Source of the DNA: Calocera cornea HHB12733
Lineage: Eukaryota > Basidiomycota > Dacrymycetes > Dacrymycetales > Dacrymycetaceae
DNA length: 64,000 nt
Direction: 5' to 3'
Assembly: GCA_001632435.1 (NCBI GenBank)
Contig: KV423975.1
Location: forward strand, 105,500 to 169,499
The position numbers and the translations under genes are program-made. The notes under the pieces are model-generated. The model was not told where the DNA came from and did no database searches. It saw only the letters and a list, made by a program, of their open reading frames with translations. Position 1 is the stretch's first letter; every line of letters begins with the position of its first letter. Below are positions 17,963-41,478 of the stretch, one piece after another.

Positions 17963-19433
17963 ATGGTCGGTCCACTCTACCCAGCACAACGGTATCTGAT
18001 GACATATACTATACAGGCTTTCGTCGCCTACGTGACGGATGCGCACTTCTTCGCACTCGCTATCTTACCTACTTTTCTCGATGGAACAGATGTATGCGCC
18101 TTTCAATCACCTTTCCGTTTCCCAATACTAACGCCTATGACTTTACTAGACTGCACACCTCCTTGTCACAACCGAGGGGATGTACTTCTCTACTAAGGAC
18201 GAGAAAGATGTACACGGTAAGTCAGCGATATTCCACTTGTCTCTCCTGGCCTCAAGCCTCCAAGCAGCCTCAGTATATCTGCCCAAAGCATGCTTCCGGT
18301 ACTGGCATACAGATCTCCTGCCCACTGGAGGCACTGGTTACACTTCAAAGATCCACTTATCTTCTATCGCTTCACTGCTCCGCTGGTACCTCGGAGTACC
18401 TGATTCTACCCACGCTGATAGTGCTCGATTCACATTGCGCACGAACACGACAACCCTCTCCACCCCCTCTCTGCTAGCATTTTTCAATCGTAAGAATCGA
18501 GTCACCCTTCAGATCTCCTGGATGGGTGAAGAGTCCGACCTTTGCTTCACATGGTGGGTGCCTCCTCTCCCTCCAATCATCATCTAACCACACCTCTCCA
18601 GCACCAATCCCACTTCGCATCGTCATATCGGCGCGGTCCGCTACCCAATGGCCACTAAGGTAGTCGATCCGTCCGCACCAGATGTTCCATTCGACCTGGA
18701 AAACACGTACGCTCGCGTTTCAAACCCCCTGCCGTCTAATGTTCACCATCATTCCTCCACTACAGTAACATCGACCTCTCCCTTACATCAACTGCTTTGC
18801 GGCAAGCTATTGCATCGACCTCCTCGACTCAATCTACCATTACGATTCATTTCCTTCCACGGGCTATCACTGCAATCTATACCGCCATCTCCTCCAACTC
18901 CAACAATCCTGTCCACCTAGATATATGCATCCGCGCACAACTGCCCGCTCCGATCAGCTTCAGGTATATACATAACTTTTCTTACGCCTAAGCAACCCCC
19001 CCCTTCTCTACCACGCTCACACACTATCAGGTACAATAATACTTCACTATCATCCCTTTTACCCGCTCTCGACGTTTCACATAAACTCCGTGTGCGCGCT
19101 GATTCGCAAGGCCTCCTCCGCATCGATTCTATTATCGCTTTTCACAACCTCCATTCTCAACTGCTATCTACTACTAATGCCACCATTACTCACATGGTAA
19201 CCGCCTCCCACTTCATTGACTATGTTACGCTTCCTTACCTCGGGGATTCTGCAACAGATAAAGTCCATCCCCTGACAGTCCACGCACTCCGTCCTACCGA
19301 ACGAGCATGCTTTACCCTCTCATCTGATTCTCAACCGAATCGGGTATTCAATTCATCGATTCCTTTAACCATTCTCACAGCAGAATCCACTATGGCTCCA
19401 CTATGGCTCCACCATGTAAGGACCCACAATTAG
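17963..19433 (+). CDS. Divergent RAD1-like checkpoint clamp subunit (9-1-1 complex)
   Basis: RAD1 forms the PCNA-like 9-1-1 clamp with RAD9 and HUS1 and signals DNA damage in the nucleus. Splicing restores a RAD1-type order: FVAYVTDAHFFALAI; after an intron starting GTATGC near 18091, TAHLLVTTEGMYFSTKDEKD; after the next intron, ASVYLPKACFRYW; then HLSSIASLLRWYLGV; NRKNRVTLQIS; DLSLTSTALRQAIASTSS; and finally LLPALDVSHKLRVRADSQG before FIDYVTLP. The last piece fits the family pattern in which a basic RxD..G segment precedes the C-terminal strand. Similarity is by eye only, and HUS1 was the other candidate considered. The C-terminal tail after YVTLP is long and low in structure. The start at 17963 is tentative; Met at 17999 is the alternative. 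Confidence 0.55.
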
Positions 19434-19489
19434 TTACCGTACTGTTCATACTGGTATCAAACTCGCAATACATGCCGTCATGATATGGA

Positions 19490-20900
19490 CCCCTAGAGCA
19501 CCGTATTAGCCTCCGTTGGCCAGGCTACCCGGAGGGTTTTCCTATTGTGTACAAGCGGGATCAAATTGGTGATTGGAAGCAGAGCAGATAACGGAAGTAA
19601 TTGGTCAAGGGGAGGCAAGAAAAGCAAAGGAGGGAAGTAACATATTGAGTGCAAATAGAGGCGATGGGGGACGGAGATATAGCCGGAAGTAGAATATATG
19701 GCGGAAGCCAAAAAAACTCGGCGGAAGTAAAAATGAAAGCGGAAGTAAACAGTGAGCAGAAGCGAGTTATTTCCTAGGATAGCACCTGTCCGGAGGCGAA
19801 ATGACTGAGATAGCACTCCGGGTGCAGTTTCCTCTAATAGCACCTTCTTGGGCGGGCAAATCGCCTGTGGCGCACCCTAGATACCTCCGCCTTGCCAAGA
19901 ACTTATTTTTCAGACTCAGCAGCCCGTTAAGTGTGAGGTTCTGACGGCACAATATGGGATATTTTTGGAGGATTATTGGCTGCTCAATTCTCACCCAAGC
20001 CAATGTAAAGCTATTGTGCTTTGAAGCGTTACAATCAAAAAGGCGAGTTGTTGCGACACTAAGGCATTCTCTTACGTTGCACCGTGCGTGCTACTCTTTG
20101 AGAATCTGCTTCCTTGGGGAGAAGAATTACTTCCCTCTTGACTTGACAAGCCCGCTTCGCATCCGTTGGGGGCTAAGGTCAGCTCAGGACTTAAAAGTGC
20201 TACTGGAGGAAAAATGCTGCCGGAGTGCTACTTCAGTCTTTCCGCCTCCGGACAGGTGCTATCCTAGGAATTACCTCGAGCAGAAGCAGCCCGCCAAGCG
20301 GAAGTAAAAATATAGTAGATGTAAATCTGAGGAGATAAACATTTCCCGAATCCACTTGGTTCCTTCTGGGACGTTGTTTCCCAAGTACTTTCATCCGCTC
20401 GATAGTTTACTTCCGCGAATCTCTTCATTTTAGCTAACTTATCTACTTCCGCTACTCAATGTGCTATGGCTATCCAATTAATGTGCTTCCCTCAAGTCTT
20501 TTGCTTCCGCATTGGTGTGGGCACTGGCCATTTGGCTTGCCTCCGTCCATTCAGTTTTGCATCCGCCGATGTATGTACTTCCGCCGTGCATTCTGATTTG
20601 GATCCGTTAAAGCATGTACAATTGAGTGACTAGGCGGAAACAAATGGGGCCGTGGAAGTAAATCGGCAGGCGGAAACAAGCATGCTACCGGAAGCAGGTT
20701 AGCAAGGGGAATCAAATGCGGAGACAAACTGTGTTCTGGAAGCGAAACATTGAAGTGGACGTATAAGTCTGAGCGGGACCACAGCGGAAGTAAATATTTG
20801 AAAGCTCCCGAACAGACGAGATAGCAATCGTGGCATACTTGCAACAGGGATGTGCGCTGGAGAGCGAGTCTGGGGAACGGGAGCACGGGAGCACGGGAAC
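19490..20900. repeat. Island of CGGAAGTAA-type motifs with strand switches
   Basis: Gene-free, comparatively AT-rich DNA. It carries many variants of GCGGAAGTAAA between about 19570 and 19760 and again at 20640-20800, and the reverse complement TTACTTCCGC / TGCTTCCG between about 20350 and 20600. Spacing is often 15-30 bp. Motif orientation therefore changes at least twice. A 516 bp MITE interrupts the island. A similar array lies at 40100-40900. The function is unknown; clustered subterminal transposase-binding motifs of a non-autonomous element would look like this. Confidence 0.6.
19763..20278. mobile_element. hAT-like MITE, 516 bp, 8 bp target duplication
   Basis: The left end (19763 on) reads CGAGTTATTTCCTAGGATAG and the right end, read on the other strand from 20278, CGAGGTAATTCCTAGGATAG. 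The match continues through CACCTGTCCGGAGGCG and CACTCCGG for about 85-90 bp at roughly 80% identity. Both ends are flanked directly by AGCAGAAG (19755-19762 and 20279-20286). An 8 bp duplication with long inverted repeats fits a non-autonomous hAT element. No transposase frame lies inside. TAGCAC recurs within each arm. Confidence 0.8.
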
Positions 20901-21235
20901 GAGGTTACCAGTTACAACCGTACCGTACTAGCAAGAAGTGCGCGTGCAAATGCTTGGGCGGCGGGGAGACGTGTTTAGACGTTTGGGTTTGAGCGGAGCC
21001 GTAGGTACCGAACAGCGGGAGTTTTGTGCGAAGAAAACACGGCCTCCAGATCCATAACTACTCTGTGTGCAGCAGGGTCCGGTGGCTCGCATCCTATCAA
21101 GGCAATCATGCAAACCGTCTCAGTAGACAGGCAGACAACCGCAGTATTCTCAGATACAGAACAAAACGAATACTTTGTGAAGAACGAGGCCAATAAAGAT
21201 AAAATGCAAGGTACGCCTTGTCCTGTTCCCGGCCT

Positions 21236-24200
21236 TTAATCCCATTCGATGCCAGCTTTGTTGCGATGTGTCTCCTTCTTCAACCACTTCATGGCACGCT
21301 TGTCGTCTTCCAACAACGGCGCCAAGCTAACGCGACACCGAGTGTTATGATCCTACGAGTGGTCAGCGTTGGTTCGTTCAGAAGACACCTCGCCATGTTC
21401 ACTTTTAACCAGGCCCGTTCTTCTTTAGTCAACAACTCCTCCTTCACCATCTTTGTTTGGATAGGAACCTGGGTGAACCGCTCAAAGCCGAGCCAAATGT
21501 CGCCCCCGAACTGGCCCTTGGTCTAGCAGAGAACGTGTTTGCGTTGTACGGACTCTTTGAGCGGTTCACTGACCTCTACGCGGCGCACAACAAGGGCACT
21601 CTCTATCCGCACACCAAAATGCCCTTCTTGGTCTACAATGTATCAGAAAGTGAGTTATCCGAGTTTAGCGGTGAACTTACAGAAGCCAGGTTCGTTGGTG
21701 AGGACGTGCCCCGGGCGGAAGGGCTCGCCAATACCGAAACCTTGCGGTCCTGAGAAACATCATAAAGTCTACAGCCTGCGATCAAAAGCGCAACATTTGC
21801 GAACCTTCGTGTACCTGTCAGCTCCCCGGTAAGCATTGTTCGACAGCTATTCAGCGGCGGCACGCTTACGTTAAGATATTGGCCATAGCCGTGCCCAGTA
21901 CCGTGCTGAAAGGATGTTAGACCACCTCCCCACCTCGAAGTATTCCTAGCCTTACCCCGTAATTTAAGCTACATAACACGCGTCAGCTGTCGCCTGACCG
22001 ATGTGACAGATGAGCCTCACCCGTCTTTCCAAAGAGCTTGACGGGCCAGCGTGTCAAGCTGAGCGCCTGTCGTACCTTCGGGGAAGATGGCTGTGTCGAT
22101 AGCAATCTTGCGCGGAACTATTAGCTCTGAGACCTCGTTGCCGATGAAAGCACACACATGACCCTGGAGAACCCGGGTATAGGCCTCCATCTGTTCATCC
22201 GTCGGTGTTCCGAAGTGGTACGTGCGGGTTGTGTCACACGTTCCGTCTCGGTAGTTGCCACCAGAGTCGCTATAAGGTGACACTTGTTACTCAGAGATGA
22301 CGGAACAATGCATTAATACTCACATCAGATATGGCGCATCGATGCCAATGAAAGAAGTAGCATTGCGCTGGGGGGCATAGTGCGGCAATGCTGATGCGTA
22401 ACGAGGCCATGATGAATAACAGGGGCAACCTTACCCAGTCACTTGCTCACCTGCGTTTGGCCCATATGCAGATATATTCTCATACGCCAGTCCCATGAAG
22501 TTCTCATTCTGCTGGCGGTACTCAGTGAGCTTTTCGCCCGCCTCCCATTCGGTGATCTTGCGACCCTTCTTCACTATCGCCTCTTCCAACCAGGCTAGCC
22601 AACGGGCCTAGGAAGAAGTCAGCGAAACCTGGCCCATCCGCACTATCAGGAAACGGCCTACCATGGCGACCCCATCTCGTAGATATGCCTCCCGAAATCC
22701 GGCAATCTCGACTTCGTTCTTGATCGCCTTGGCCCTTTCAATCTCAGAGTGTATTAACACTTCGAGTTTTGTCTATTTGAAATCAATTCAGGAGCTGTGC
22801 ATCACGGGAGGTTTGTTGCTCTCACCGAGAAGAGAGTGGCGGTAATGGCATAGGCCGTCTTGTTGGAGAGGAGCACTTTACCGCTTGTTGCGTTCTCCTT
22901 CCGGAGGAAGGCCCAGATTCCCTCATATGGTTCGAACGTGATGCCGTGAATCTTCAGGTGCGCCTTGGTGCCGTCCGAGAGCTTGGATGAGTCTACAAAA
23001 AGTATGGCACGGTCCATATCGACGAAACCATAACTGCGGAAGACTGGGTTATACTCGACATCTGCTCCTCGAAGGTTGAACAGCCATGCAATTTCATCCA
23101 AAGCAGAGACCAGGTATGCGGTACAGCCAGGCCGGGTAGCAATGAATGAGCGAAGTTCCGCAATCTTCTCTCTCGGGTTTCGACCAGCAAACCCGACCGG
23201 ATGGATGACGACGGGGCTCTTGCTTCGTAAGGGTCTATCCGTCCATATCGTATCAACTAGATTACGCCGAGGGAAAACCAGCTTAGAAGTCTTCTTTGTG
23301 AGTTGAGAGGATAGCGAGATGGCCATAGCTATTGAAGGGTCGTTGGAGTCTGTCAGTGTCTTGAACATTGTCATAGCAGGATTACTGACCCCGTGAGAGT
23401 AGGCGAGGGTCAACGCCAACTTGACTCCCGGCAGGAAGATCCTACGAAGAGAACCATGAAGATCAGATCGCTTTGATTTGAATTCTAGGTCACTTACGGT
23501 GACATACTCATCCCACCGTTTGACACCTGGCAGACCAACTTTGTACAGCGTCCAGTTGCTGTCCAGCTGCCGGCGAGCTTGAATATAGTATCGAGAATCC
23601 GTAAACAGGACCGCGGAGGTGAGACCAACGACAGCGACCCCAGCGGACCCAGAAAACCTAGTGTTGTCTGCGGTGAGGACCTCGCTGTTATACAAGGAAG
23701 AGTTTGCTAACCCAGATATGAATTGACGCCTCTTATCAGAGTCAGCGACATATTCGGACTGATGTTCATCCTCGGACGGGACGATACTGCGATTACATGA
23801 GCACATCTCGACTACACGGGAAGCTGACCTACTTACTAATATCCAATCTTCGCTTCGGCAAACAAGGCTCGCAGCGCAGTAAGACGCTCCGTACTGTCTA
23901 CTCGAAGTTGAGAGCTGGATGTGGATATATTTGAAAGGGTAGAGTGGGCCGTAGACATGGTTTGCATGGTAGAAGTCGTCTTCATAGTTGAGGCAGACAG
24001 GTGAGACGACTTGGAGGCATATGTCATCTTAGATGCCGCACTGTTGGATCGCGATAACGTCGGTAGCTCTGCCGCCGCTGAGGATCGGGACACCACGGCC
24101 GGCCGTGTGGGTAGCGCAGACGTCTTGCTTGCTAAGCTGGTACTGCTTGAAGCGGCTGAACCAGATGAGCGAATGGACGTCGCGGAGAGTTGTGGCGTTA

Positions 24201-24366
24201 GAACAGGACGGGCAGGATTGGGCTTTCTGAGGGTAGAGCGCCTGGATAAAGCACCCTCCGACTCTTTCTCGACACTCCCACTACGCCTGGTGTTGTTGGA
24301 ATCTGACCGCTGAAGCTCGACAACATGGACCTTTTCGGTGCTCTTGGCCGTCGCATAGGTCGACAT
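21236..24366 (-). CDS. Xaa-Pro aminopeptidase (creatinase/M24B family)
   Basis: Metallopeptidase that removes an N-terminal residue preceding proline. After a roughly 165-residue Ser/Thr-rich N-terminal extension come [18 protein letters not shown] and, after an intron, [14 protein letters not shown], the conserved creatinase-type N-domain start. [10 protein letters not shown] and [13 protein letters not shown] follow. The catalytic domain has both metal Asp ([16 protein letters not shown]), [17 protein letters not shown], and NEPGFY, then an [10 protein letters not shown] segment carrying a metal Glu; it ends KAGIEWD and TAA at 21238-21236. VHEG is supplied by a 10-nt exon at 21805-21814 between two 55 bp introns, without which the frame appears broken. 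I chose Met at 24366 (MSTYATAKS); Met at 24540 would add a Cys/Pro-rich stretch that does not look real. At least eight exons. Confidence 0.88.
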
Positions 24367-25241
24367 TGTGTTGATCGACGCCGCATCATGCTCTTCTTCG
24401 CCGTCCCGTTGACGATAGCGGGTTGGCGTAAAGCAGGACAGCATGGCTGTATGGCCGTAGCAAGCGGGGCAAGGTGAGGGATGGGATGCGAGGCAAGCGG
24501 GGAGGGGACAGAGCCACGCTGGTAAGAGGCCGCATGCCATGAGCGACTCTTGCCGGTTGCAATGTCACGGCACCGATTTGGCTCCGGTCCGATCAGACCG
24601 ATTCGTACAACTGCGCCCTTCATCATGCCTTCCCCGAACCCGGCACAAATCCTGAGCACAACGGGGTCTACAGCACGCGTCGGGGCAGCGTAACAGGAGT
24701 CTGACCATGATTCGGATGTCAAGGCATGGGTACTGAACAGCCATGAACGAATAACAACATGTTCTTTCGGACTGCCGCCGATGCCACTGCCCCAACTGCC
24801 CCAACTTTCCACTCCTCCACCTTGCGAGATGAAGGCGAAGCACAAAAAGACGACGGCCCCATGGGAGGCATCGGCATTCTTGAAAACACCGATCGCATTG
24901 AGTTGGGGGGGAGGGGGATAGAGGAAGGGGGACGCCAGGCGGCGGCATTGGGGCAGGTGGACGACGAGATGGAAGAGGACGGCGCCGAACAGAACACCGC
25001 CCAGTTTCTAGGTCTCACATTGCGGTGGCGCTCTCTTGGCTTGTCTCGCAAGTTGTCCTTACTTTGTAGCACGGACTGCATGTACATCACCGAAGGCGCC
25101 CTCGAGGTAGCCCCAAAATGAATAATTCAGCAACTCATCATGGTTCCGCATGGCGACACTTAGCAACATATCGACCAACCCCAGGCGACTGCTACAGGAA
25201 CACCCCCACTACTGCACATATGTTTCGTGAAGGGCGTTCTA
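24367..25241. other. No clear gene
   Basis: Several overlapping frames on both strands (for example 24719-25090 minus, 24759-25121 plus) read the same Pro/Ser/Gly-rich low-complexity DNA and have no recognisable motif. Promoter and 5' UTR of the aminopeptidase gene are expected here. Confidence 0.4.
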
Positions 25242-26108
25242 TCAGTCAGAGGAGTAGTCGAGCCCGTCAGCCGAATCCGAGCTGTACAACATTCGGACGA
25301 CACTCCCATCCCCGAGATCATAACTTGCAAACTCATCCGCGGATCCCTCACTTGTCTCCCACGCTCCCTCACGCCCTTCATCCCCTTCGACGCTCCTGTC
25401 GTCCTCCAGAAGCTCATCATCAGTGTCATCATCTTCGAAATGCTGTGCTCCGAATCTTGCACGGAGAGCCATCTCCGCTTCCTCGAACTCCTTGAGGTCA
25501 CGTTCGTCTTCCGAATCAAGTTGGGCAGACAATGGTGGAACGATGCGGTATTGGTAGTCCAGGCCGGACTCTTCTCCCCAGAGGCCAAGCTCATCGTCAG
25601 AGAGGTCTTCCGAGAGTGCAACATCATCTTCGGAGCTGTTGCCCCCGCCGTCTGCACTCGACTCCCCTCGATATCGGCCGGCCGCCTGGAGATGCGCCGT
25701 CTTTCCAGCATAGCTTCCCTCCTCGCTTTCCTCGGTGTCGTCACCGTCGCCCAGATAGCTTCCCATCAACAGATCCCCAATCTCGTAGGTCTTCTCCAAG
25801 CGACGAACGAAACCTCGATCCCGGACTACCCGGCCCGTGAACACGTCCACTTCGTCATCTTCGTCTAACGGAGTCGAGTACTTCTCAACGAGAGACCACC
25901 AGCAGTTCTGTAGTCGCAGCGTTGCCTCCATACGGTGTGTGGACAAGTCATTGGCGGGAGAAGTGAATGTATGAACATCGGAGCTGTAAGTGATACGGCG
26001 CCGTTTACGGGGAGTTTCGGTCGTTGTCGTCGTCGCGCCGGCGTACGCGGTGACGCGAAAAGGTGGTGGAAAGAACGGCCGCCTGCGTGCGGGCTTTGGG
26101 GTATCCAT
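25242..26108 (-). CDS. Acidic nuclear-type protein, possibly Scm3/HJURP-like
   Basis: Single-exon frame. Start MDTPKPARRRPFFPPPF at 26108 was chosen over Met at 26297 because the added residues look non-coding. A basic PRKRRRITYSSD resembles a nuclear signal. The central segment RLQNCWWSLVEKYSTPLDED followed by DEVDVFTGRVVRDRG resembles, by eye, the short Scm3 pattern in which a Trp-plus-EKY helix precedes an Asp-rich DEIDL..G.IV.D.G loop. Scm3/HJURP deposits the centromeric histone CENP-A. The rest is strongly acidic (DDDTDDELLEDD and similar) and Ser-rich, as in histone chaperones. The match is short, so an unrelated acidic chromatin protein is quite possible. Confidence 0.4.
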   Translation of the reverse strand: MDTPKPARRRPFFPPPFRVTAYAGATTTTTETPRKRRRITYSSDVHTFTSPANDLSTHRMEATLRLQNCWWSLVEKYSTPLDEDDEVDVFTGRVVRDRGFVRRLEKTYEIGDLLMGSYLGDGDDTEESEEGSYAGKTAHLQAAGRYRGESSADGGGNSSEDDVALSEDLSDDELGLWGEESGLDYQYRIVPPLSAQLDSEDERDLKEFEEAEMALRARFGAQHFEDDDTDDELLEDDRSVEGDEGREGAWETSEGSADEFASYDLGDGSVVRMLYSSDSADGLDYSSD

Positions 26109-26486
26109 CGGAGAGTCAGCGGCGTGTAAGTGACTACGGGCCACGGCTTTGGCGGTGGGAAAAGTGCATAAGCAGAGTGGCGTGGAGGACGATGAGTGAG
26201 CTGGTCGATGAGCACGCGTAGAGACGGGACAGGCACGGAGACCGTGTCCAAGCGTCACGTGCCGCAGTGACGGGCGGGTAGGGTCCTCGACTGGCAACGC
26301 AAACCGAGTCGTAGCGCCTGCCCCAACCCGCCAAGGATACTGTCAAGCAACCCGCCCGTCTTCCAGGCTGTCATCCGGACAGTATGCCATGCACCCGCAT
26401 CGTTTGGTACGTAGCTTCGGACCGAACATGATGATGCCGACTGACATGACCCAGCATGTCATTCAATCGGTTGGTATTCTGATTGC

Positions 26487-27163
26487 ATGCCTTCAGCACA
26501 CGCACCTGACATTATCCAGATCGAATCCATTATACAAACTCTCTTCTTGTATCAGTGTGAGCACTATGAAACCGACCGTCCTTACAGCTGTTTGACGTCT
26601 GTGTTAGATCTCTCCGATACCTCGCTCCTTTTGTTCCTCAGTCGATCTCTCTTTCACCTTCACTGTGTGAATCTGAGAGAGTGGCACCCGGCTCGTGGCA
26701 TCAGATTTTTCTCGGCTCTCTTGCTGTTCAATTTCGCTCATGCTGTCATAAGACATGCATGGGGAACACTGGGAAAGACTTTCATTTTGGACTTCGTTGG
26801 GCACAGTACGTCGGTCATGCTTGCCGTCGTTCCAGCCTTGGTCTGATGTACTATACAGCATCACGGGCATCACGCCTTCACTTCTTGCTTCTGGACCTTC
26901 TCATCTTCATTCTGCAACTCGTCACTGTGTATGTTGCATGGGAGACTGGTCACCGGGATTCACGAGAACCTGACCCTCTGGAGCCTGTCGAGGGCGAAGA
27001 CGAGAACACCGATTTCCTTGGTTCGTCCCGCCTTCATCCCAGATCTGCTCCACGGCTCACAGGGTTGCAGATCTCGAGGCAGCTGAAATCCCCAGAACCA
27101 AGCACCCAACTCTACAGCCCGTCTTCATTTTGCGTTCCAGACACTGCTGGCAGCGCTTGTTAG
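26487..27163 (+). CDS. DUF1746 fungal membrane protein
   Basis: Three exons. Exon 1 (MPSAHAPDIIQIESIIQTLF) ends at a GTGAGC donor near 26557. Exon 2 carries SDTSLLLFLSRSLFHLHCV and ARGIRFFSALLLFNFAHAVI, and ends ILDFVGH at a GTACGT donor. Exon 3 continues SRLHFLLLDLLIFILQLVTV and YVAWETG, then an acidic, low-complexity tail. The ILDFVG...SRLHLLLLD..I..LQ pattern is the signature I know from the fungal DUF1746 domain. Three to four hydrophobic helices are expected. Molecular function is unknown to me. Stop at 27163. Confidence 0.75.
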
Positions 27164-27717
27164 AGCCCTACAGCAGCAGTCTGAGCTCTGTGTCCCCTCC
27201 CGACGCACCTGTATGATAGAGCACTGTACTCTTGCTTGTACCATTCTGAAACTTATTTGCAATGCGGGTGGGAGTTGGTTTGTCCAGTTAGTTTGTTCCT
27301 TTGTACATTAGAGCTCTCCGTCCTGGTTGGAGTCAACAAGACTACCGCCGAGGACGGATGAATGAGCTTCATCAGGCTGCTTAGGGTGTGTCAACGTCAT
27401 TCGAGGTCGCGGTGTGGCCATCATGCCCCTGGCACTCCTCACACCATTCTGAATGACCCGACTTTATAGACGGTTCACCATCGAATGGCATCATGTATGG
27501 GGCGTTGCACCATAGCGTCACTGTTGGGCGTACCCTTTGCGCGTACTGGTGGCTGCACGCACTGAGACCGTGTCATGGACGGATCTATTGCAATCTAGAC
27601 GTCATCTCAATCTCAATTGGGGAAGGAGAGTTCGGGATTCGGCGGCGTATGGGTATCAAACATATGCAATGGCGCTGAACTGTTGTACATGTGTGAAGCC
27701 TGCAGAGAACATTCCGC
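27164..27717. other. Convergent intergenic region
   Basis: Lies between the 3' ends of the DUF1746 gene and NOG1 (convergent). No supported gene. Frames at 27493-28082 on the plus strand run antisense into NOG1 exons and were dismissed. Confidence 0.5.
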
Positions 27718-30077
27718 CTATCTCCTGTCTGTCTTACCCGCCTTGCGCTTGCCCGAGAAAAGATGTTTCGGCTGTTCACCCACATAAGCATAGAAGAGCG
27801 ACGAGACTTCAGTTGACGCACCATTTTAACCCTGATAGCGCGATCAGATTCACCAGCTTTGGCATGCATGTTGCGTCGTCGTTGACCCAAGTTACGCAAT
27901 CTAACAGCCTTGCTTGTTTGCTGGTACGAGAAGCATCAGAATGGGTGCCTTTCACGTCAGTTTTTCTGGCTTACCTCCTCATTCGCCATGCCGGCCAGCT
28001 GTCTCTGGCTTTTCGGAACGTGGGCGCCGACTGCCACGGCTCTGGCCTTGCCACCGTTGGACTTCATACGCTTTCGAGGTGAATCGTCGTCCACATCCAT
28101 GGCTTCGTCTTCCCAACTGCTGCCCTCATCCACATCCATCTCACCCTCTTCACCATCGTCTCGCTTACGTTTGCGCTGTGCACCTCTTGCTTTGGCAATG
28201 GCTTCCGCGCGTGCTTCAATACGACTCGGATCGAGGCCAGCTTCGGTGAGCTTTCGACTCATTTCCGAGAGCGTCCGCAGACCAGCAGTACGGGGCATGA
28301 CCGGACGATTCTTCATTTTGTTCTTGTCCTGCGATGCCTTCTTGTCTCGCAGTTGTTTGACGTTCTCCAAGGCTTCGCGTTCGTCGTCCGAGTCGAACTA
28401 AACTATTGTCAGCAACTCAGCTTGCTGTATCCAAGGCTGACACGTACCATGCTCTCGGGTTCGCTGTCGTAAAAGCCCTCTGCTTCAAGACGTTCTTCTT
28501 CACGCTCCAAAGCCTCCAGCTTTTCAGCGATATCAGCGTCAATGAAATCAGCCACATTTTTGCCATCCATGATCTCTGGAATGACGTCTTGTTTCCAAGA
28601 GTCATCGGCAAGGAGGTAATTCTCTGTGTACTTGATCAGTACCCTCCGCGCCTTGCTTTTCCCTGACTCACTCTTCATGTTGATGTTGTAAACTCCAGCG
28701 CCGCCCTCCTCCGCCTCGATGTCCCGCTCCAATTTGCGTGCCATGGGGTCGTTCTTATCGTATCGCACGCGACTCTTGGCAGCCTCGGGAATGAACGCCT
28801 CACGAACAACATCGTCTCTTGCTTTTGGTACGGCCACGTGAATACGATTTGCGATCGAATTGATTTTGTTGCCTTTGAGCTTGTTATCGACCCTATGCGC
28901 AAGCAATGCATCACAAGCTACAGTCTTCACAGCAGTGACGCCCTCATCCGAATAGCATGAAAGCTGGACCATCTGTACTGCGGGATCTTGCGTGATAGTA
29001 GCAAGAAGTGCTTTGTTTTCTTCCGACAGGTCTTCCGGCCTCGTAACGTCGATTTTATTGACAACCAAGAGTGTTGGTTTACCTGCGAACAACGGTTTGA
29101 TAGAGTGGAACAGCTTTACTTGCGCTTCGATCGTATAGCCGCACTGCTCGCTGAGATCCATGAAATAGAGAACCGCGCTGCGCAGATGAGCCAGAGCCGT
29201 AATACTTTGCATTTCGATGGTATTCATTTCCTCGAGGGGATGATCGAGGATCCCGGGGGTGTCGATGACTTGCCAACGGAGGTACTTGTAGTCCATGTGT
29301 CCGACGAATAGCGATTTGGTCGTGAAGGCGTAAGGTTGCACATCAACATCGGCCCGCGTGACCTTGTTGATGAAAGAGGATTTGCCCACGTTCGGATAGC
29401 CGCAAATCAAAAGTGTCCGCGTGTTGGGATCGATAGCGGGCAAACGAGCGATGTGCTGTCGCACTTGTTCTAGATATGCCAAAGCGTCCTTCTGTCGGCG
29501 CATAATGGTAGCCATGCTGAAATAACAAAGGTCAGGATTTGATATTGTAGGCCGCAGACAAGACCGACGCACCGACCAAGTGCAGCCTTCTTCAGTTGCT
29601 TGCAACGATACAAGCTGTCCCCAAACTTCAGCAAACGGACATAGTCCTTCGCCACCTGGTCTATCAAGTGCCGAGCCGTATTGAGCTGACCCAGCGCCAG
29701 CTTGTAGTGATTCTTGTCGTATAGTACGTTCATTAGAGATGCGAGGAACGGATGAAGGTTCTATCAAAAACGTCAGACAGACGGACATGGTGACGAACAA
29801 CGAGCACTCACATCCAATATGGGAAACTCTGACAATATGGCACCAAGTTTCTCATCAAAGGAGTCTTGCGTGAATTTGACCTTGCGCATGTAGAAATTGC
29901 GTATACGGCTGATTTTGAAGTTTTTGTGAATGACCTGTACGGCGATCAGCAACAATCACTCAAGAGGAAGAAGAGACTCACTGTCGGCGTCTTGCGCTGT
30001 GTTTTGGAGAGGACAATGTCCAGGAAGTCGGCCGCGGTGGGCACAGGCGCGATGCCCTTGAGTCCCTTGGAAGCCAT
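27718..30077 (-). CDS. NOG1: Nucleolar GTP-binding protein 1 (NOG1)
   Basis: Essential nucleolar GTPase of 60S ribosomal subunit assembly. It starts [20 protein letters not shown] at 30077, followed by [27 protein letters not shown]-type helices and the G domain: G1 [10 protein letters not shown]3 DTPG, and NKID (G4) in the exon 29518-28409. The NOG1-specific C-terminal region follows ([33 protein letters not shown]). The last exons read [20 protein letters not shown] and, after a short intron, [17 protein letters not shown], then TAG at 27720-27718. This is the full family length with canonical introns. The minus-strand frame reaching up to 29800 extends through an intron and is not the start. 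Confidence 0.95.
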
Positions 30078-33718: not shown

Positions 33719-33829
33719 CCGGTCGTCAAGAGGCCAAGCTACATAATCGGCTCTCTTAAGATTTCCATGCCTAATGCCTCCGGCGGCGGGAGTAGTATTA
33801 GCTTCCGGTGCACCGGCAATGCATATACT

Positions 33830-33863
33830 GGATGACTTGCCGTAGACCTAGATCCGAGATTTT
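33830..33863 (+). repeat. Left terminal inverted repeat of Harbinger-like element
   Basis: Starts GGATGACTTGCC, preceded by ACT. Matches the right end at 33 of 34 positions; the mismatch is at position 27. Confidence 0.9.
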
Positions 33864-33964
33864 GAGCGTCCTAGATGCGCCACACAGGGTCTGCCGAGGT
33901 GCCGCTGTCAAATTTCAAACTCCGGAGCACTCCTAGATTGCTTATCGTCCGTCCTAGATGTCGA

Positions 33965-33998
33965 ATCTAGGAGAGGGGTCCCCCCCCCTCTCCTAGAT
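33965..33998. repeat. Subterminal hairpin
   Basis: Perfect 14 bp arms ATCTAGGAGAGGGG and its complement (33965-33978 and 33985-33998) enclose a 6-nt loop. The arms contain the TCCTAGAT motif that recurs on both element flanks. Confidence 0.8.
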
Positions 33999-34159
33999 CT
34001 TTTCTGCTCTCCTAGACTCTCACGGAAGCACTGAAGAGCACGGATGTTTCACGATGCCAGACGCCCTGGCCAGGATGCACCAATCAGATGCAGGGCCGGT
34101 TACATTGCGGTCTCCCTGACCTTCGTGCTGAGGTTGCGCATCCTCCCACGACCACCACC

Positions 34160-35474
34160 ATGTCCAGCGCATCCTTTCACGCATCGTCCCCCACACCGAC
34201 TCCATCCTATATACCCTCGACCTTTCCGCAGCCATCCCCAACATATGTGCAACCTTCAGCTCCCTTCCCCACCCTCCCCTATGTTTCTCACTGGGGTACG
34301 ACTGGCAGCTCCTACAGCGGCAGCCCGCGCGGTATGCCCCACTCCCCTCAATTCGACACCGATGGGTTGCCGCGCACCCTTGAAGATGCTGTCCAGTGGG
34401 TTGAAGGCACCGATCCCCTGCCCACTCCCTTGCCTCCCAAGCAGGCTGCGCAACCTGGCTCAGGCAAGAACAAGCGCAAGGCACCGGCTACACGAACTGA
34501 GGATGCACCGGACACGAAGAAGAGGCCCAGTGGTAAAGGTCGGAGCGCCGGAGCTCGCAATTTTGCCGATGAGGAGGTTCGGGAGTTGATTGAGCTGATT
34601 GAGGAGTACCGCCCTATTGGGTCGAGCAGTTGGGATAAAGTGATGCTCGGGATGCAGACTTTCTGGGCATCTGAAGGGATGGAGGTCCGCACGGCCGAGA
34701 GTCTGAAGCGGAAGTTTTCCCAGGTGGGCCCCCCCTGAGGTTGCGCAACCTTGCCTTTTTGACATCCGTTTGCAGATGTGCCGCATGCCCAAGCCCACCG
34801 GGGATGGCGAGATGCCTGAACTCATTGGCCGTGCCAAAGACATCAACGTTGCCATACAGAACGATGTCGAAATGGGGAACCTCCAGGACGAGGATGAGGA
34901 TGAGCCAAATGATGCGGACGAGGAAGAGATTCCATGGCCCCCCACGGACCAGGAGGATGCGCCAACCCGTGCCCAGGCCGCGCATCCTAACCGCGCCTCC
35001 CACACCCCGAGCACATCAACAACCGATGAACGCTTGCTGGTCAAGCAGCGCCGGCATGTCACCGCGGCCCCTCAAACCACTGGTCGCCAATCGAAGACTT
35101 CGGTATTGCTTGCCAACGTCAGCCGAGCATTCGACCCGGAAGCCCAGGCAGAGCGTATGCAACAGCGCGATACCGTCCGGGCGGAGCGCAGCCTATTCCA
35201 GAGCGAAATCAGTTCACTTCAAGCTCAACTCCGCGATAAGCAGGCTGAGCTGGTTGCTGTGAGCTTGGAAAAGGACAAGCTCATCGAGTCCCTGCGGACG
35301 CAGGCGCTACAGGATGCGCGCGCCCTCCTGGTCGTGCAGGGTGAGCTAGACGTTGCGAAGGCAAAGCTGGAGATGCAGGAGCGAATGCGGACCATGATGA
35401 TGGGTATGGGGGATATGGGGAAGTTGATTGCACGGTCTATGAGTCTGGCTCCTGGTGGGGATGCGCAACCTTAG
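34160..35474 (+). CDS. DUF6818/Myb-SANT-like DNA-binding protein of the transposon
   Basis: Two exons with one intron (donor GTGGGC near 34723, acceptor TTTGCAG at 34776), which contains the palindrome AGGTTGCGCAACCT. After a Pro/Ser/Thr-rich N-terminus and a basic linker (KNKRKAP, DTKKRPSGKGR), the domain reads NFADEEVRELIELIEEYRPI, then SSSWDKVMLG and AESLKRKFSQ, and after splicing MCRMPKPTGDGEMPELIGRA. This is the DUF6818-type trihelix/Myb fold. An acidic middle and a long coiled coil (about 35170-35400: LQAQLRDKQAELVAV) suggest dimerisation. Harbinger elements normally encode such a Myb-like partner that binds the element and carries the transposase to DNA. The start at 34160 follows a palindrome at 34131-34144. 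Confidence 0.8.
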
Positions 35475-35489
35475 GTAGGATGCGCATCC

Positions 35490-36853
35490 TTAGTCTTCCT
35501 CTACGACCACATAATGAAATTTGGCCACTCGATCGGCTTTGAGAATGTCCGGGAAGAACATTTCCCGAAGCGAGCCCCATACTTGCTTTTGCTCAGTTGT
35601 CTCCGTCCAGATCGGTTCGTAAACATTTCGGAGTTGATTGATCCCAACAAGGCGCACTCTAATCTGGTGGAGGCGGAAGACAGTTTCAAGCAGGGTGCGC
35701 CGAGTGGGTGCATCGTTGGCATCCAATGGTAGGCGCAACCTGCCAAAGGAGCCCTGGATCGCCCGCATGCCCCACTCTGCCGACTGCCGGAATGAGACCA
35801 GTTGGTCAAGAAATTGCAGCTGGTCCCGTGTTGTTCGACTTCCGCTCTTGACCGGTGTTCTGATCTTCGTCTTGATCGAATTGCGATTATGGGGAAAGGC
35901 TGTGTCCGCTGCAAGGAAGAAATCGTCCGGGGTGTACTCCTCCAGCTGGGCGTATATACCGCTGGACACCTTGGAATCATGCCAACTGCCTGGCGCGTTG
36001 ATTGCGGCATGAATCAGTTCTCCTGGTCAAGGATGCGCCCTTGTTAGGTTGCGCAACCTAACGGGAAGTGTGCAACCTGGGACGTACCCCGGGTTGAAAA
36101 AACCAAAACATTGCTGGTAAAGTGCCCGTGCAACCACCCGTTGTATTGTGCATTTTGCCAACGCTCATCGCTGGATGTTGCTGTAGGCAGGTTGAGCCCA
36201 TCCACTGACCCAAACGCACCCTGGAGCAAGGGATGTCTGGCGACCACAAGATCGGACAATTCCTTGAATTGATCACCTTTGGGCCAGGTGATTCGAGCCT
36301 CGCCCATGGCTCGCAGTGTCCGCAAGAGAAGATCAAGGCCAAAGGCACGGTATCGAGTAATGGTCGATGGGATGAGCGCAAAGATTTGCGCCAGCGACTT
36401 GTCCATCATTGTGGAGTTGAGCCAGTAAAGAACCAAGCCCAGTCCTCCAGCAGCGTTGAGGGAGCGCTTCTCCGGTCTCGGCTCGCCCCAGCTCGAAACG
36501 TCGGGCCGCGGTATCGCTTCGGAGTTCCAGAGCTGTTCGAAACCACCTTCCAGGATGCGCCGGAAGGTCTTCACATCCAGCCCCATCGTCGAGATGTAGG
36601 CACGGTCAACCTGTCCTGTCAGGACGGTCTGAAAGGGTGTGCGCACCCTGGGATTCCTCAAAAGATCCGGTCGAGTAAGGTAGGCCCGACGCTCCCGACG
36701 TTCGCTCGCCCGAGCTTGCGCAGCCTGCTCTTCCACGAGAGTGAGGAATGCTGCAAATCTCCACGAGTCGAAATCGTCGTCTTCGCTTTCATCGTCCTCG
36801 GAGTTCCATTCTTCCCAGGATGCGCGCATCCTTGCATCATGGTCGTGGGGCAT
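35490..36853 (-). CDS. PIF/Harbinger DDE transposase (DDE_Tnp_4 type)
   Basis: Endonuclease/integrase that cuts and joins the element ends. Two exons: the first ends VLVFSTR-G at a GTACGT donor near 36088; the second begins ELIHAAINAPGSWHD near 36020. The catalytic triad is complete: Asp near residue 218 (GAFGSVDGLN), Asp near 295 (FFLAADTAFPHN) and Glu near 338 (QSAEWGMRAIQGSFG). About 430 residues, a normal Harbinger size, with no stop or frameshift. The N-terminus is acidic (SEDDESEDDD). I chose Met at 36853 (MPHDHDARM); Met at 36964 would place the coding start upstream of a 32 bp palindrome. It converges with the Myb-like gene, 15 bp apart. Confidence 0.88.
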
Positions 36854-36905
36854 TTGGTGAGTGCGGGCGCGTCCAAACCACGAGTATGATGCAGTCCATA
36901 GCAAT

Positions 36906-36937
36906 TGGAACACCAGGATGCGCATCCTGGTGTTCCA
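36906..36937. repeat. 32 bp perfect palindrome upstream of transposase
   Basis: The core AGGATGCGCATCCT (36915-36928) is extended by matching TGGAACACC / GGTGTTCCA arms. This is the longest perfect palindrome of the family in the element and lies 53 bp before the chosen transposase start. Confidence 0.9.
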
Positions 36938-37070
36938 GATTAATGTAACGGACACAGGGAGCAAAACAATTTAATGTCATTTCATTGATTATTGAGACAC
37001 GCGACACGTCCAGACGCGTCGCGCGTAAGTACACACACACGACAGACCCATGAATAACCCCTACCCAGCC

Positions 37071-39779
37071 CTAATCCACCTTGGCAAAGTGCGTTACGAT
37101 CCACTGATGGCGACCCTTGAACTGTGTTCTATGTTAGCGACTTCAGGTTGCGCGCAACCTGAAGACTCACAGGTCCGTGCATCTCGGTGCGCGCTTCCAC
37201 GTTCATCAGCCAGGTCTGCGCCTGTGCCGCGTCAATTGCCCATCTGGCAAGGTTGTAGGCCTCAAACTGCCACAATGCTCGTTAGCTAGGATGCGCGCAA
37301 CCTGTAGGGGATTTGGGACTCACATCGTTCTGCCCCAATCCCATCTGCTGCCGCATGTACTCCGCCGAGACGCCGAGCGCACCCTTGGTCGCGGTGTTGA
37401 ACGCAACGGCGTCGTGGATCGCGTTGTCGCGATCCACGATGCGGAAGCGAAGGAGGTACCTGGCAATGACGAGGTCAGCGTGAAGCGCAAACAGGATGCG
37501 CATCCTGAGGGCCAGCGGGCTACAAACCTCCCTTCCCCCACCGCGAATTCGTGATCACAACGCGTACAGCGCCACATGCCCGGCCCAACCGGCTCGGCGT
37601 CGTTGGCTTTCTTGTTGCAGTTTGCTCCCCCGCACCCAACGTATGTGATCGAGCCGGGGTTGGTGACGAGGATGCGCCCCTGAATCTTGAAGAAGTCGGG
37701 GTCCTGCCTGAGGCCCCAACGCCGGTTGAGCACGTCCCGGATCGTAACCGTCGGGGCACGAGTCTGGAGGCCCAACCTCTTGAGAGCTTTCGCCCCGTCA
37801 GCGCTGCAGCTATATGCGAGGACGTTCCAGTGAGGGTCTTCCGTGAGCGTCTGCTGCCACCTGCAGAAGGGTCAGGATGCGCGCTCGGGGGGATGAGCGC
37901 AACCTGAGGATGCGCGCATACTCACCACTGTACCATGTCGTTATACGGGGCGGCAAGGTCTGGCGCATCCTGGCCACGGAGGATCTCGGTCAGCCCGCTA
38001 ACCGTCTTCAAGCAGATCTCATTGGCGCGTCCATCCTCCATGGTGACATTGTGCAGGAGGACGACCTCGCCGTCTCGCCGGTACAGCTGTTCGGGGAACT
38101 CGTCCCATGCCATGAGGCGGCGCGCATACATGGACTTGTCCGTGACGAAGACTTCGCAGCGTGTGAGCTGAGGGGGCTTGTCCCAACCCTGATCCAGGTT
38201 AACAAGGTTGCGCATCCTCATCGCGGATGACTTACCTTCACTGCATCTCCCTTGGGCTTGCCAGGGATGATCTCGCTGGTGTTCATTATGACGCACCAAA
38301 CATCTGTGACTTTGTGAGTGCTAGGATGCGCATCCTCGGGGCGGGGAAGACTCACCGATGGGCTTGTTGGAGAGTCCGCGTTGGAGCTGGTTGAGCTTGC
38401 GGTAGTTCAGGATCCATTCAGGTATGGTGGGCTCGTCAACCTGTGGAACCAATGAGGATGCGCATCCTAAGAGGATGAGCAACTCACTTCAAAGAAGCCG
38501 CACTCCTCGTTGATCGAAAGCTGCACGGGGTGGAACGTTCGACACCACACGCGAGACGCAATACACTGGGCGTTGAATATCTGATAGCAACGCCCAAGGC
38601 GCAACCTGGTGTGGTCGAAGTTCCTCTTGAGGTTGGGCCGGACGACGATATCGATGGTGCCAGTGGCGTCATGTCCAACCAGGTCAACGGTCGAAGACTT
38701 GTTTTCAATGCGAGTGAGGCGAACCCAAACGTGTGCGGCATCCTGCCCGACGGTAAGCGTGTTCACATCGTCGAAGCCAGGATGCGCTGGATCGTTGAGA
38801 TCGGGGGGAGCGTTGCCATGCGGATAGGCAAAAGGTCCTCGGAGCGCACCCTGAGTGGGCTGAGGCGGCGCAGGGGGAGGAGGCGTGGGGGAAGGCGAGG
38901 CCGCTTGTGGATCCGGATTGACAGGGTGCGCATCCTGGCGGGCAATGATGTCCTCAAAGGATGCGCCCCAACGCCAGCCGATACCGTCCAGGTGCATGAC
39001 AAAGTTCAGCCCATCCTGAACCCTCCCCTGAGCATCGAGCGGGGAGTGTCCAGGCGTGATCCAGTGCGCCGCATGGTTGGGCGGGCGGGAGCCCACGGTG
39101 AGCATCCAGCCACCCATAGGCTGCACCGGGGCGAGGTCGACCGGAATGTTGGCTTCGCCGCCCTGGAGTAGGCGCGGGGCAACGATGAGGTTGCGCTGAT
39201 GAGCGGGGCTGAGCCATTCGTAGGTTGGGGGAGGGTCGCGCAACCTGATGTATGCGATGGACCGTTTGAACTGGAAGCCAGGAGGGTACTTCGGCTGTCC
39301 AATCTTCCCAGGATGTGCTCTGACGAGGATGACGTTGTGTATGAGGATCGATAGGTGCCTAAACGTTGCGTTAGCACATCCTGGAGGCTATGGGTGAGGG
39401 AAAGGACAGGTTGCGCACTTGTTATCCTCTCCCGGCACTCTATACGTGCTGTACCCCACGACCTGCACCACGTTGTGCACCCTGAGACGGTACGTCTGCA
39501 GCTGCCAGACGATATCGAGGCCGGCGATGCAGGGGATGGTGAACTTGCCATCACTGAGGTATATGCTGCAACAGCGTCAGGATGCGCATCCTAGGGGGGC
39601 GGGGAGTGGACTCACGTGAAGCAAGGAGGCTCACGAGAGCGTCCGCTGGCCTGCGTCTTCTCCTCGACTGCGATGATCTGCATTTGCGGGAGGGACTGCT
39701 TGTCGAGGATGTTGTGCAGGATGCGCTGGCAGGTGCCCGCCGTGAGAGCGTGACCGCCAGGGTTGAGACCAGGATCCAT
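37071..39779 (-). CDS. Replication protein A large subunit (RPA1-like), transposon-borne
   Basis: RPA1 binds single-stranded DNA during replication and repair. Order of parts: an N-terminal OB-like segment (LTAGTCQRILHNILDKQSL, then TIYLSDGKFTIPCIAG); a Pro-rich linker; DBD-A (HVWVRLTRIENKSS, GTIDIVVRPN); DBD-B (PIDVWCVIMNTSEIIPGKP); then the RPA C-terminal domain with zinc ribbon YVGCGGANCNKKA and WRCTRCDHEF, and YLLRFRIVDRDNAIHDAVAF. It ends HFAKVD, TAG at 37073-37071. About ten exons. The first intron is 39615-39566; I delimited nine introns, each with a palindrome copy or fragment. The start at 39779 (MDPGLNPGG) fits the usual distance to the first OB fold; Met at 39938 is the alternative. 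No lesion was found. It could be a captured host gene or an established component of this transposon lineage. Confidence 0.85.
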
Positions 39780-40050
39780 TTGGAGCGGATGGATCGGGGA
39801 TGCCGAGAGGCAGCGAGCAAGCGATCGGGGGCGTTGGTGAGCCGAGCTAGAGGAGGCGGGCGTGGCGCAACCTGGCTGGACCGCTGTCATCCCCCACGCT
39901 GGCAAGCGGGAGCAGATGGCGTGATTTAGGTTGGGCACGTGACAAATTTAGGATCTAGGAGGATGCGCGCGCTGCATCCTACGGTCTGGGTCAACATCTA
40001 GGATCTGTGTTTATGCCTCCGAAACTGCTTCCGTTTAGGATCTGTGTCGA

Positions 40051-40084
40051 AAAATCTAGGATCTAGGTCTACGGCAAGTCATCC
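40051..40084 (-). repeat. Right terminal inverted repeat of Harbinger-like element
   Basis: Complement of the left end; ends GCAAGTCATCC at 40084, followed by ACT (40085-40087). Confidence 0.9.
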
Positions 40085-40099
40085 ACTTACCTACATCCT

Positions 40100-40900
40100 G
40101 TAATGTTAAGGTACTTCCCGAGGGGAGTCCTTTGCTTCCGTTTCAACTATTTACCTCCGTTGCTGAATTTGCCTCCGGTTTACCGCCGCCAATAAATGTG
40201 CTTCCCTTCGAAGCTTTGCTTCCCCTAGGACGTCTGCTTCCGCTGAACATATGCTTCCGCTGCAGAATTGACTTAGGCCTAGCACTTGCTTCAGCAGTGG
40301 ATGTTCCCTGTCTACATAATCTGCTTCCGTAATTCGAGTGCTCCCCCTGAGTAGTTGCGTCCCCTCTAGGATGTACTATGGGTAAAGGTTTTGCTTCCTG
40401 GTTAATTGTGTCCGCTATAATATCTGCTTCCGCCGGAGTTATTTTTTGCATGACCCGCCCACTTCCATTATTCTGCTTCCGCGGAGGTAGCTCCATGCAA
40501 TGGAAGTAGAAGTGGAGCTGAAGGGCACGCAGCACCGGAAGCAACTCTGGTGTCAGGGGCCCAATGCCCAGCGGAGTCAAACTGTACCACCAAAGCACAC
40601 ACTACAGCGGGGTCAAAGTGGTTCACGGAAGCAACTTCGATAGCGGAAGCAAACGGGCATTGGGGGCAAAGGCAATGGATGCAAACGTCTGCATAGCAAG
40701 GAGGAGCAAAGCGCTCAGCGGACTGAAGCGGAAGAGACCGGAAGCGGAACTTGCAGCGGGGCACCTCTTCACATGGAAATGCAACGGACACGCAAGCTGG
40801 GGGCAGAGCGGAGGTAGAGTGATCAGCGGAAACAGACTACCGGATGCAGAACGATTGTCACCGCGGGTCGCCGAGCGCACCGAACGTGCGCGATCGCAGG
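40100..40900. repeat. Strand-switching array of TGCTTCCG motifs
   Basis: From 40125 to about 40495, variants of TKTGCTTCCGYT occur roughly every 20-25 bp (for example TTTGCTTCCGTTT, TCTGCTTCCGCTG, TATGCTTCCGCTG), about 16 in 400 bp. From about 40500 to 40900 the complement AGCGGAAGCAAA and variants take over at similar spacing. The array is thus a diffuse inverted structure centred near 40497. Two further copies (GCCTCCGG, GCTTCCGGTG) lie left of the Harbinger-like element at 33778-33815, which suggests that element landed inside this array. Confidence 0.65.
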
Positions 40901-41478
40901 AAATTGGGTGAACAGCAGGGTTACAGCCTATAGACCTAACTCCCCTTGCATCGCGAGGGGACGTGATTGGCTTTCCGACTTACAGCGGTGCACCTGGTGG
41001 CTCCAATTGCGAACATCTGATACTGTAAGAGGTCGAAATCCGCTCACCCGAGGGGAGGGGGGGATCAGCCCGAGCGCTAGCCATAGGCTGATCTCCTCTA
41101 TTGGAGCCCTCGACATACAGTCAACTACAATGAAGGGTAGATGGCCATATGATAATAAGGGCACACATTGTCTACGGAAGGCCCCGGTTCCGATTCCTTA
41201 CAGATCCAGCCTTTTTGCGAGGTTTGACATCTTCTCAGTGCACACCCGACAAGCGGCCGGGTCGGGGGGGAGCTGGCTTCCTGTTGTCCGTAGCCAAACC
41301 CTCCCTGGGCTGGCGGTCCAAGACCGGGTGACAGCTCGCTGATATGATGTCGTGTCCAAGCGTGAAAGGGGTGCCATACGATAGTGTCAGCAAATCGCAT
41401 CCGGCCAATCGGTCAAGATTAGAGTAGTAGATTGGATAAGATAGGAAGACACATGCCATCTCGCACTGCAGCAATCTC
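40901..41478. other. No clear gene
   Basis: 3' flank of the first seven-helix gene. Frames here are short and unsupported. Confidence 0.5.

Follow-up and report, generated by a model that had tools for sequence, protein, structure and literature searches.

What does a cut-and-paste transposon do with a protein of the single-strand DNA-binding RPA type? The question is raised by a stretch of 64,000 nucleotides from the jelly fungus Calocera cornea HHB12733 (contig KV423975.1, positions 105,500 to 169,499 of the forward strand; hereafter the window), in which an element of 6,255 bp (window 33830-40084) carries an RPA large-subunit-like gene beside a Myb-type gene and a transposase gene. A first-pass annotation of the window had described this element as a Harbinger-like transposon with a third gene encoding RPA1. 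We find that the RPA-like gene recurs in complete copies of the element and is under purifying selection, and that the body of the element is filled by a short dispersed DNA motif that is itself under selection. This motif array, which is absent from the first-pass annotation, is more unusual than the RPA gene. The best overall explanation, to which we give about an even chance, is a three-gene transposon of the Pangu type with a dedicated RPA and with the motif array as a binding address.

The genome (32.1 Mb, 302 contigs) was searched with the first 72 bases of the element, giving 20 matches that comprise its own two ends and 18 other places, each of which was inspected. Complete three-gene copies of ~6.17-6.21 kb lie between matching terminal inverted repeats (TIRs) at three other loci (L017 on contig C83, L019 on C53 and L020 on C2), and the four complete RPA-bearing copies, the window copy included, have one gene order and nine shared RPA intron positions. 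A further locus (L021, C155) has the Myb-type and transposase genes, but its RPA gene is reduced to the 3′ end and adjoins other sequence. A protein search of the genome located more exons of this RPA type on C179 and C219, both running only to about residue 547 of 750. The NCBI protein P0005 (541 residues), present on two contigs of which the longest has 57,992 bases, agrees with these two partial genes, and this suggests that the C179 locus is interrupted by the end of its contig. The one-off capture of RPA considered in the first-pass annotation is ruled out, because the gene is present in four complete copies between matching TIRs and in three incomplete loci more (L021, C179 and C219). 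The element gene is also not the host's own RPA1 caught between mispaired repeats, as a separate host RPA1 lies on C3.

The RPA reading frame is open from the NCBI start codons in all four full copies. Across the six pairs of these copies, the ratio of nonsynonymous to synonymous divergence (dN/dS) is 0.18-0.31 at a dS of 1.19-1.41, which is near saturation; for the transposase, dN/dS is 0.05-0.10 over ten pairs of RPA-type (A) copies. Among the A copies compared, the RPA proteins are 0.55-0.69 identical, the transposases 0.79-0.82 and the Myb-type proteins 0.65-0.71 (L017 excluded from the last). In L017 the frame of the Myb-type gene is split, and the RPA model has one stop, upstream of the start of the NCBI protein P0004. 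Three shorter relatives (Pangu-B; L038, L039 and L040) of 2.9 kb, with TIRs starting GGATGCCTTTCCAT, contain the Myb-type gene and a transposase and lack an RPA match, and have moved recently, given that they are 99.3-99.8% identical to one another. The A and B copies thus both contain a transposase and a second open reading frame, to which the RPA gene is added in the A copies. The genome also contains ten two-ended short copies (miniature inverted-repeat transposable elements, MITEs) of 403-489 bp, and four loci with one end only in a search with the 34-base repeat (L009, L018, L025 and L026), of which L025 and L026 align as short non-autonomous copies.

Word counts in the window revealed the motif: GGWTGCGC occurs 51 times in the element and four times in the remaining 57.7 kb. 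The half-site is AGGNTGCGC, often doubled into the palindrome AGGNTGCGCANCCT, and is distributed as follows.

34131..39968, both strands: dispersed array, 59 AGGNTGCGC half-sites across introns, coding sequence and intergenic DNA
34738..34751, no strand: full palindrome AGGTTGCGCAACCT in the intron of the Myb-type gene, one of twelve AGGNTGCGCANCCT in the window, all inside the element
34131, 34443, 35477, 36046, 36915, 37493, 38205, 38323, 38455, 38923 and 39579: starts of the other AGGNTGCGCANCCT

The four full copies contain 59, 62, 61 and 61 half-sites, compared with 0.2-0.5 expected from dinucleotide shuffles, and the Pangu-B copies contain 26-27 each. Half-sites are missing from the 1.7-3.7 kb of flank examined at each of the four full copies and from seven of the ten two-ended short copies. 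In the 57.7 kb of the window outside the element there are three, versus 2.0 expected by shuffling. In the 32 Mb of the genome the palindrome occurs 110 times, against four for the reversed pattern. Merged sites lie on average 131-148 bp apart in seven of eight elements (211 bp in L043). In all eight the coefficient of variation shows a spacing more regular than the random mean, but it falls below 5% of simulations in only five. The motif is present in all 46 accepted introns of five modelled copies (46 of 48 if two doubtful, motif-free introns are counted, a 52-bp one in RPA exon 1 of L020 that is absent from P0002 and a 43-bp one in the Myb-type gene of L017 where the frame is doubtful) and in six of six introns of L021, L039 and L040. 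Across the five copies introns hold 41.9 half-sites per kb, coding DNA 6.3 and other DNA 7.7. Coding half-sites number 70 sense and 69 antisense, which argues that the motif is read as double-stranded DNA and is no RNA signal. Pairing of the motif as RNA hairpins is disfavoured by this lack of strand bias and because the N bases of both arms vary freely in the introns inspected.

The array is under selection at the DNA level over the element body. Between the four full copies, identity at the fixed bases of the motif is 0.91 whether they lie in introns, coding or other DNA, whereas it is 0.33, 0.62 and 0.57 at the N position and 0.53, 0.68 and 0.66 at bases outside the motif in the same three classes. 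At third codon positions, identity is 0.81-0.95 within the motif and 0.45-0.49 outside it. Individual sites are partly gained and lost, such that 39-50 of the 59-62 sites in a copy are matched in place by another copy (six pairs).

The motif extends to unrelated transposons. Two copies of a Mutator-like element (MULE; L042:1644-7220 on C11 and L044 on C27, 84.6% identical over 5.4 kb), with a MULE transposase domain (34.2 bits, cut-off 27.6) and 9-bp duplications AGAACGACT and GTGCAGAGC read off the flanks, hold 49 and 46 AGGNTGCGC half-sites, nearly all with C at the N position, together with an RPA-like gene of their own. There are 18 half-sites in an element with a Tc5/pogo-type DNA-binding domain (L046; 24.8 bits, cut-off 22.2) and 16 in a second Harbinger lineage (H2, L043). 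The stretches counted were cut by eye, those of L041 and L046 without fixed ends. Where palindrome clusters among the matches listed were looked into, they lay in transposons.

Other Harbinger-type lineages have different words instead. An old, broken relative (L041; transposase part 66% identical) has no AGGNTGCGC and contains words resembling CpG-decayed ACCTTGCGCAAGGT, for which reason the intact form was expected elsewhere. C34, C64 and C243 together contain six occurrences of the exact ACCTTGCGCAAGGT palindrome, accompanied on C34 and C243 by matches to Harbinger-type transposases; if one mismatch is allowed there are 23 places, compared with nine for the reversed control. The Harbinger-type family of C34 and C243 has dispersed ACCTTGCGC, with a further cluster on C64, and its member L045 (H3; C34:171500-176800) has 14 ACCNTGCGC and no AGGNTGCGC. 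A further Harbinger-type family (L047, C16:87800-91000, with a copy at C8:258704-260040) has neither AGGNTGCGC nor ACCNTGCGC; its dispersed motif is GACCAGC, with 15 GACCAGCA in 3.2 kb, and the palindrome GACCAGCWGCTGGTC taken from it occurs four times in the genome (two at this locus and two on C8) and not at all as the reversed control. Because the H2 and H3 transposases, 69% identical over 153 residues, go with different motifs while unrelated superfamilies share one, the code does not follow the transposase, and we favour a reader of the motif that would lie outside the transposition machinery.

The ends of the window copy comprise TIRs of 34 bp (GGATGACTT, beginning GG) flanked by a 3-bp duplication, which bears out the near-perfect inverted ends and ACT duplication of the first-pass annotation.

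33827..33829, no strand: left copy of the target-site duplication ACT (flank sequence)
33830..33863, plus strand: left TIR, 33 of 34 positions matching the right TIR
40051..40084, minus strand: right TIR, one mismatch in 34 against the left TIR
40085..40087, no strand: right copy of the target-site duplication ACT (flank sequence)

Identical 3-bp ANT flanks border all four full copies (ACT or AGT), eight of the ten two-ended short copies and, read off the flanks, all three Pangu-B copies (AAT, AAT and ACT). The two remaining short copies, both of 470 bp, have crossed flanks, AGT/AAT at L010 (C225) and AAT/AGT at L011 (C172), as if their ends had been exchanged by recombination between both copies. 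The passages on the Pangu group in Han et al. 2015 (PMC4482050) give an ANT target duplication, TIRs of 11-40 bp usually starting AG or GG, an average length of ~3.5 kb, and a DDE transposase with a second open reading frame, which one section describes as without a known motif and another as having a Myb/SANT domain. The element shows the ANT duplication, the TIR length and GG start, and a transposase with a second-frame gene (DUF6818). The Harbinger-like element of three genes between TIRs, RPA included, therefore stands, but by its duplication and TIR start it fits the Pangu group of PIF/Harbinger and not canonical PIF/Harbinger; its transposase is placed as DDE_Tnp_4. Immediately beside the right end, window 40000-40999 contains a cluster of ten CGGAAGCA/CGGAAGTA words on either strand, and 11 more lie in 19000-20999. 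Elsewhere in the window, Pfam matches mark likely host genes at 22805-29851 (a prolidase N domain, the centromere protein Scm3 and the GTPase NOG1), and a partial gene at 62640-63998 includes a Transposase_21 domain (tnp2 family).

Spliced gene models were built by hand and domains assigned by Pfam profile match against the family cut-offs. The Harbinger pair of the first-pass annotation is present, as a Myb-type protein of 420 residues with DUF6818 (45.8 bits, cut-off 27) and a transposase of 432 residues with DDE_Tnp_4 (59.4 bits, cut-off 24.8), each from two exons. The RPA-like gene has ten exons and encodes 776 residues as searched, or 774 after a six-base acceptor shift indicated by P0001 and the other copies. 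All rows below are spliced models.

34160..34723, plus strand: Myb-type gene, exon 1 (protein has DUF6818)
34776..35474, plus strand: Myb-type gene, exon 2 with stop
36088..36853, minus strand: transposase gene, exon 1 (DDE_Tnp_4 in the spliced protein)
35490..36022, minus strand: transposase gene, exon 2 with stop (DDE_Tnp_4)
39616..39890, minus strand: RPA-like gene, exon 1 (NCBI P0001 begins at codon 38, window 39779)
39419..39565, minus strand: RPA-like gene, exon 2, N-terminal oligonucleotide-binding (OB)-fold region (Rep-A_N match under cut-off)
38488..39358, minus strand: RPA-like gene, exon 3, linker and DNA-binding domain (DBD) A by alignment
38356..38440, minus strand: RPA-like gene, exon 4
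38236..38303, minus strand: RPA-like gene, exon 5 (start corrected from 38309 by comparison with P0001 and other copies)
37926..38188, minus strand: RPA-like gene, exon 6, DBD-B by alignment
37528..37860, minus strand: RPA-like gene, exon 7, DBD-C with four-cysteine zinc ribbon (profile match, host alignment)
37324..37459, minus strand: RPA-like gene, exon 8
37171..37266, minus strand: RPA-like gene, exon 9
37071..37121, minus strand: RPA-like gene, exon 10 with stop

NCBI models P0003 and P0004 equal the hand models from their start codons and P0002 from its 11th residue, whereas P0001, for the window copy, starts at codon 38 of the hand model and omits part of the zinc ribbon.

The protein is RPA70-like. 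Its C-terminal domain matches Rep_fac-A_C (PF08646; 56.1 bits, cut-off 28.5), with the match stopping at position 123 of 146, and the protein matches solved chains named as replication factor A protein 1 (6i52, E 1.4e-10) and as RPA 70 kDa subunit; the four cysteines of the zinc ribbon are kept in all four complete copies. The N-terminal OB fold stays under threshold (Rep-A_N 15.2 bits, cut-off 26.7). Compared with host RPA1, the element proteins resemble the N-terminal fold weakly, miss a 12-residue stretch in DBD-A and end ~16 residues short, before the C-terminal trimer stretch. The complete large-subunit gene of the first-pass annotation stands as far as the zinc-ribbon domain goes, but ‘complete RPA1’ is too strong because the protein stops ~16 residues before the host end in the four complete copies. 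Two further corrections are the sub-threshold N-terminal fold and the recognition of DBD-A and DBD-B through alignment. In canonical RPA70 a C-terminal helix joins RPA32 and RPA14 in the trimer. The element protein would be better seen as a stand-alone or differently partnered single-strand binder.

Among the relatives found, the nearest outside the family appears to be the RPA gene carried by the MULE of C. cornea. Its protein matches those of the four element copies at E values between 5e-33 (L017, 205 residues at 32% identity) and 9e-24 (window copy), compared with 1e-4 for host RPA1, and when the genome was searched with P0002, the MULE loci came directly below the Pangu loci, with host RPA1 not listed. 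We relied on these pairwise scores because a tree of the C-terminal domain (14 rows, 72 columns) resolved little, with two of 11 inner branches well supported and a long MULE row. Together with the host alignment they indicate a divergent, transposon-type RPA and no copy of host RPA1, which modifies the earlier identification as RPA1. Two more divergent RPA-like genes (C40:138163 and C83:124906) pair strongly in the same tree. RPA-like matches on C36, C118, C140 and C21 lie within ~8.5 kb of Helitron Rep genes, in a genome with 36 Helitron_like_N match rows.

Several observations weigh against a dedicated RPA combined with a motif address. Only an alignment with host RPA1, at ~20% identity, reveals DBD-A and DBD-B, and the predicted structure of P0002, from a five-sequence alignment of itself and four relatives, has a mean predicted local distance difference test score of 33.9. 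Protein searches (~8,000 candidates scored in each) returned only five C. cornea proteins and missed host-type RPA1s too, and so carry no inference on other fungi. The empty site with a single ACT that the first-pass annotation proposed as a check did not turn up for the window copy, as a search with the joined flanks matched only the two flanks themselves. The half-site is not confined to motif-bearing elements, because the genome holds 2,550 compared with 1,439 for the reversed control, and three of the ten two-ended short copies hold two, one and two half-sites. The motif occurs without an RPA match in the examined stretches of Pangu-B, H2 and the Tc5/pogo-type element, so RPA and motif need not form one system, and we found no element-encoded protein common to the motif-bearing families. 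For the RPA gene itself the rival explanation is passive cargo, captured once by an ancestor and merely carried. Pangu-B has moved recently without an RPA match, and RPA is the fastest evolving of the three genes, as passive carriage would have it. Cargo is nevertheless unlikely: the frames stay open in four copies at a dS of 1.2-1.4 under the dN/dS given above and a related RPA sits in the MULE, and the conserved gene order and nine shared introns likewise disfavour the ‘simple cargo’ of the first-pass annotation.

For the motif, a site for an ordinary host transcription factor, in a promoter or intragenic enhancer, is doubtful but has to be taken seriously, and itself counts against the address reading. 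One motif in several unrelated elements suggests a shared host reader, and the genome-wide excess of half-sites means that some may lie elsewhere; however, the sites are spread over the body at ~140 bp and occupy every accepted intron with no clustering at promoters, and outside the element the window contains scarcely more half-sites than shuffling predicts. Many transposases bind short repeated sites, and the two Pangu subfamilies have the motif in common, as would be expected if it served transposition by binding the transposase or Myb-type protein that the respective element encodes. We consider this quite unlikely, given that short two-ended copies have multiplied with no half-sites in seven of ten cases and one or two in the other three, that unrelated superfamilies share the motif, and that the similar H2 and H3 transposases go with different ones. 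Least probable, and in our judgement very unlikely, is a mark by which the host recognises and silences transposons: the palindrome excess over its reversed control and the transposon location of the clusters looked into, among the matches listed, agree with it, but selection between copies retains the motif, which is unexpected for a target of silencing.

In the explanation that we prefer, of a Pangu-type transposon with a dedicated RPA and a motif address, the Myb-type protein and the transposase would carry out excision and insertion at ANT targets. The RPA70-like protein would be a transposon-dedicated binder of single-stranded DNA, because the C-terminal helix for RPA32 and RPA14 is missing, and would act at gaps and copied strands around transposition; the first-pass annotation had proposed for it a possible part in protecting excision gaps or in coupling to replication. 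Alternatively, it may compete with host RPA where single-stranded repeat DNA triggers silencing. Quelling in Neurospora depends on RPA, which interacts with QDE-1 (PMC2950127), and a competing element RPA would accordingly be a testable form of the idea that the RPA-like protein weakens a defence responding to single-stranded DNA. The motif array would be the binding address of a sequence-specific double-strand DNA-binding protein that coats the element every ~140 bp, and the reader could be a host factor or a protein from one transposon that is used by others. Such a coat may keep the element genes open. Our best guess, by analogy with the VANC proteins discussed below, is that the motif may be an anti-silencing address; the element ends and most MITEs would then do without it because they need no expression. 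More broadly, it is plausible, although we rate it somewhat below even, that unrelated transposons (Pangu, another Harbinger lineage, MULE and Tc5/pogo-type) have converged on AGGNTGCGC every ~140 bp, that lineages switch codes (ACCTTGCGC, GACCAGC) independently of their transposases, that the reader lies outside the transposition machinery, and that the RPA of Pangu and MULE belongs to the same toolkit against host surveillance.

A cut-and-paste lineage has thus kept an RPA-like gene of its own until synonymous sites were near saturation, which opens to direct test the reason why a transposon of this kind would need a single-strand binder. A short double-stranded DNA signal that is selected so strongly, in coding sequence as well, and that unrelated transposons share implies a factor and a pathway that could be isolated with a 14-bp bait.

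Each part of the system has partial counterparts. The element resembles Pangu transposons in its ANT duplication, its TIR (11-40 bp, starting AG or GG) and its DDE transposase with a second open reading frame, and differs from them in its RPA70-type third gene, its length of 6.2 kb against an average of ~3.5 kb and its dispersed motif array; the passages on Pangu in PMC4482050 make no mention of a third gene. Fungal DNA transposons with TET/JBP genes, Harbinger elements among them, likewise have a conserved extra non-transposase gene common to several superfamilies, as described in the main text of PMC12730594, whereas the extra gene in C. cornea is RPA70-like; a word search of that main text matched neither RPA nor Calocera. 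RPA genes are carried by plant and some animal Helitrons, according to PMC4289320, and C. cornea too has RPA-like matches near Helitron Rep genes, but Helitrons are rolling-circle elements and the C. cornea element is a cut-and-paste transposon with TIRs and a target duplication. We found no description of an RPA gene in a Harbinger or MULE element in the open-licence literature, judged mostly by titles and abstract openings, and the work on VANC was the sole similar case of dispersed anti-silencing motifs recognised among the matches listed there. In that work (Hosaka et al. 2017, PMC5735166; Sasaki et al. 2023, PMC10398659), a 9-base motif is dense in one group of transposons, VANDAL, its types differ by family, and the VANC6 motif is also present in an unrelated transposon. 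In systems of the VANC type the motif is bound by a protein that the element itself encodes and that takes methylation away. The C. cornea element is similarly dense in a short motif (59-62 half-sites per full copy) whose types differ between families. VANC21 motifs are mainly non-coding, in one orientation and often in tandem repeats, whereas those of C. cornea are single or palindromic, dispersed on both strands, and present also in coding DNA and in every accepted intron. If the array does help the element to evade silencing, fungi would have in it an equivalent of the VANC system that works across superfamilies.

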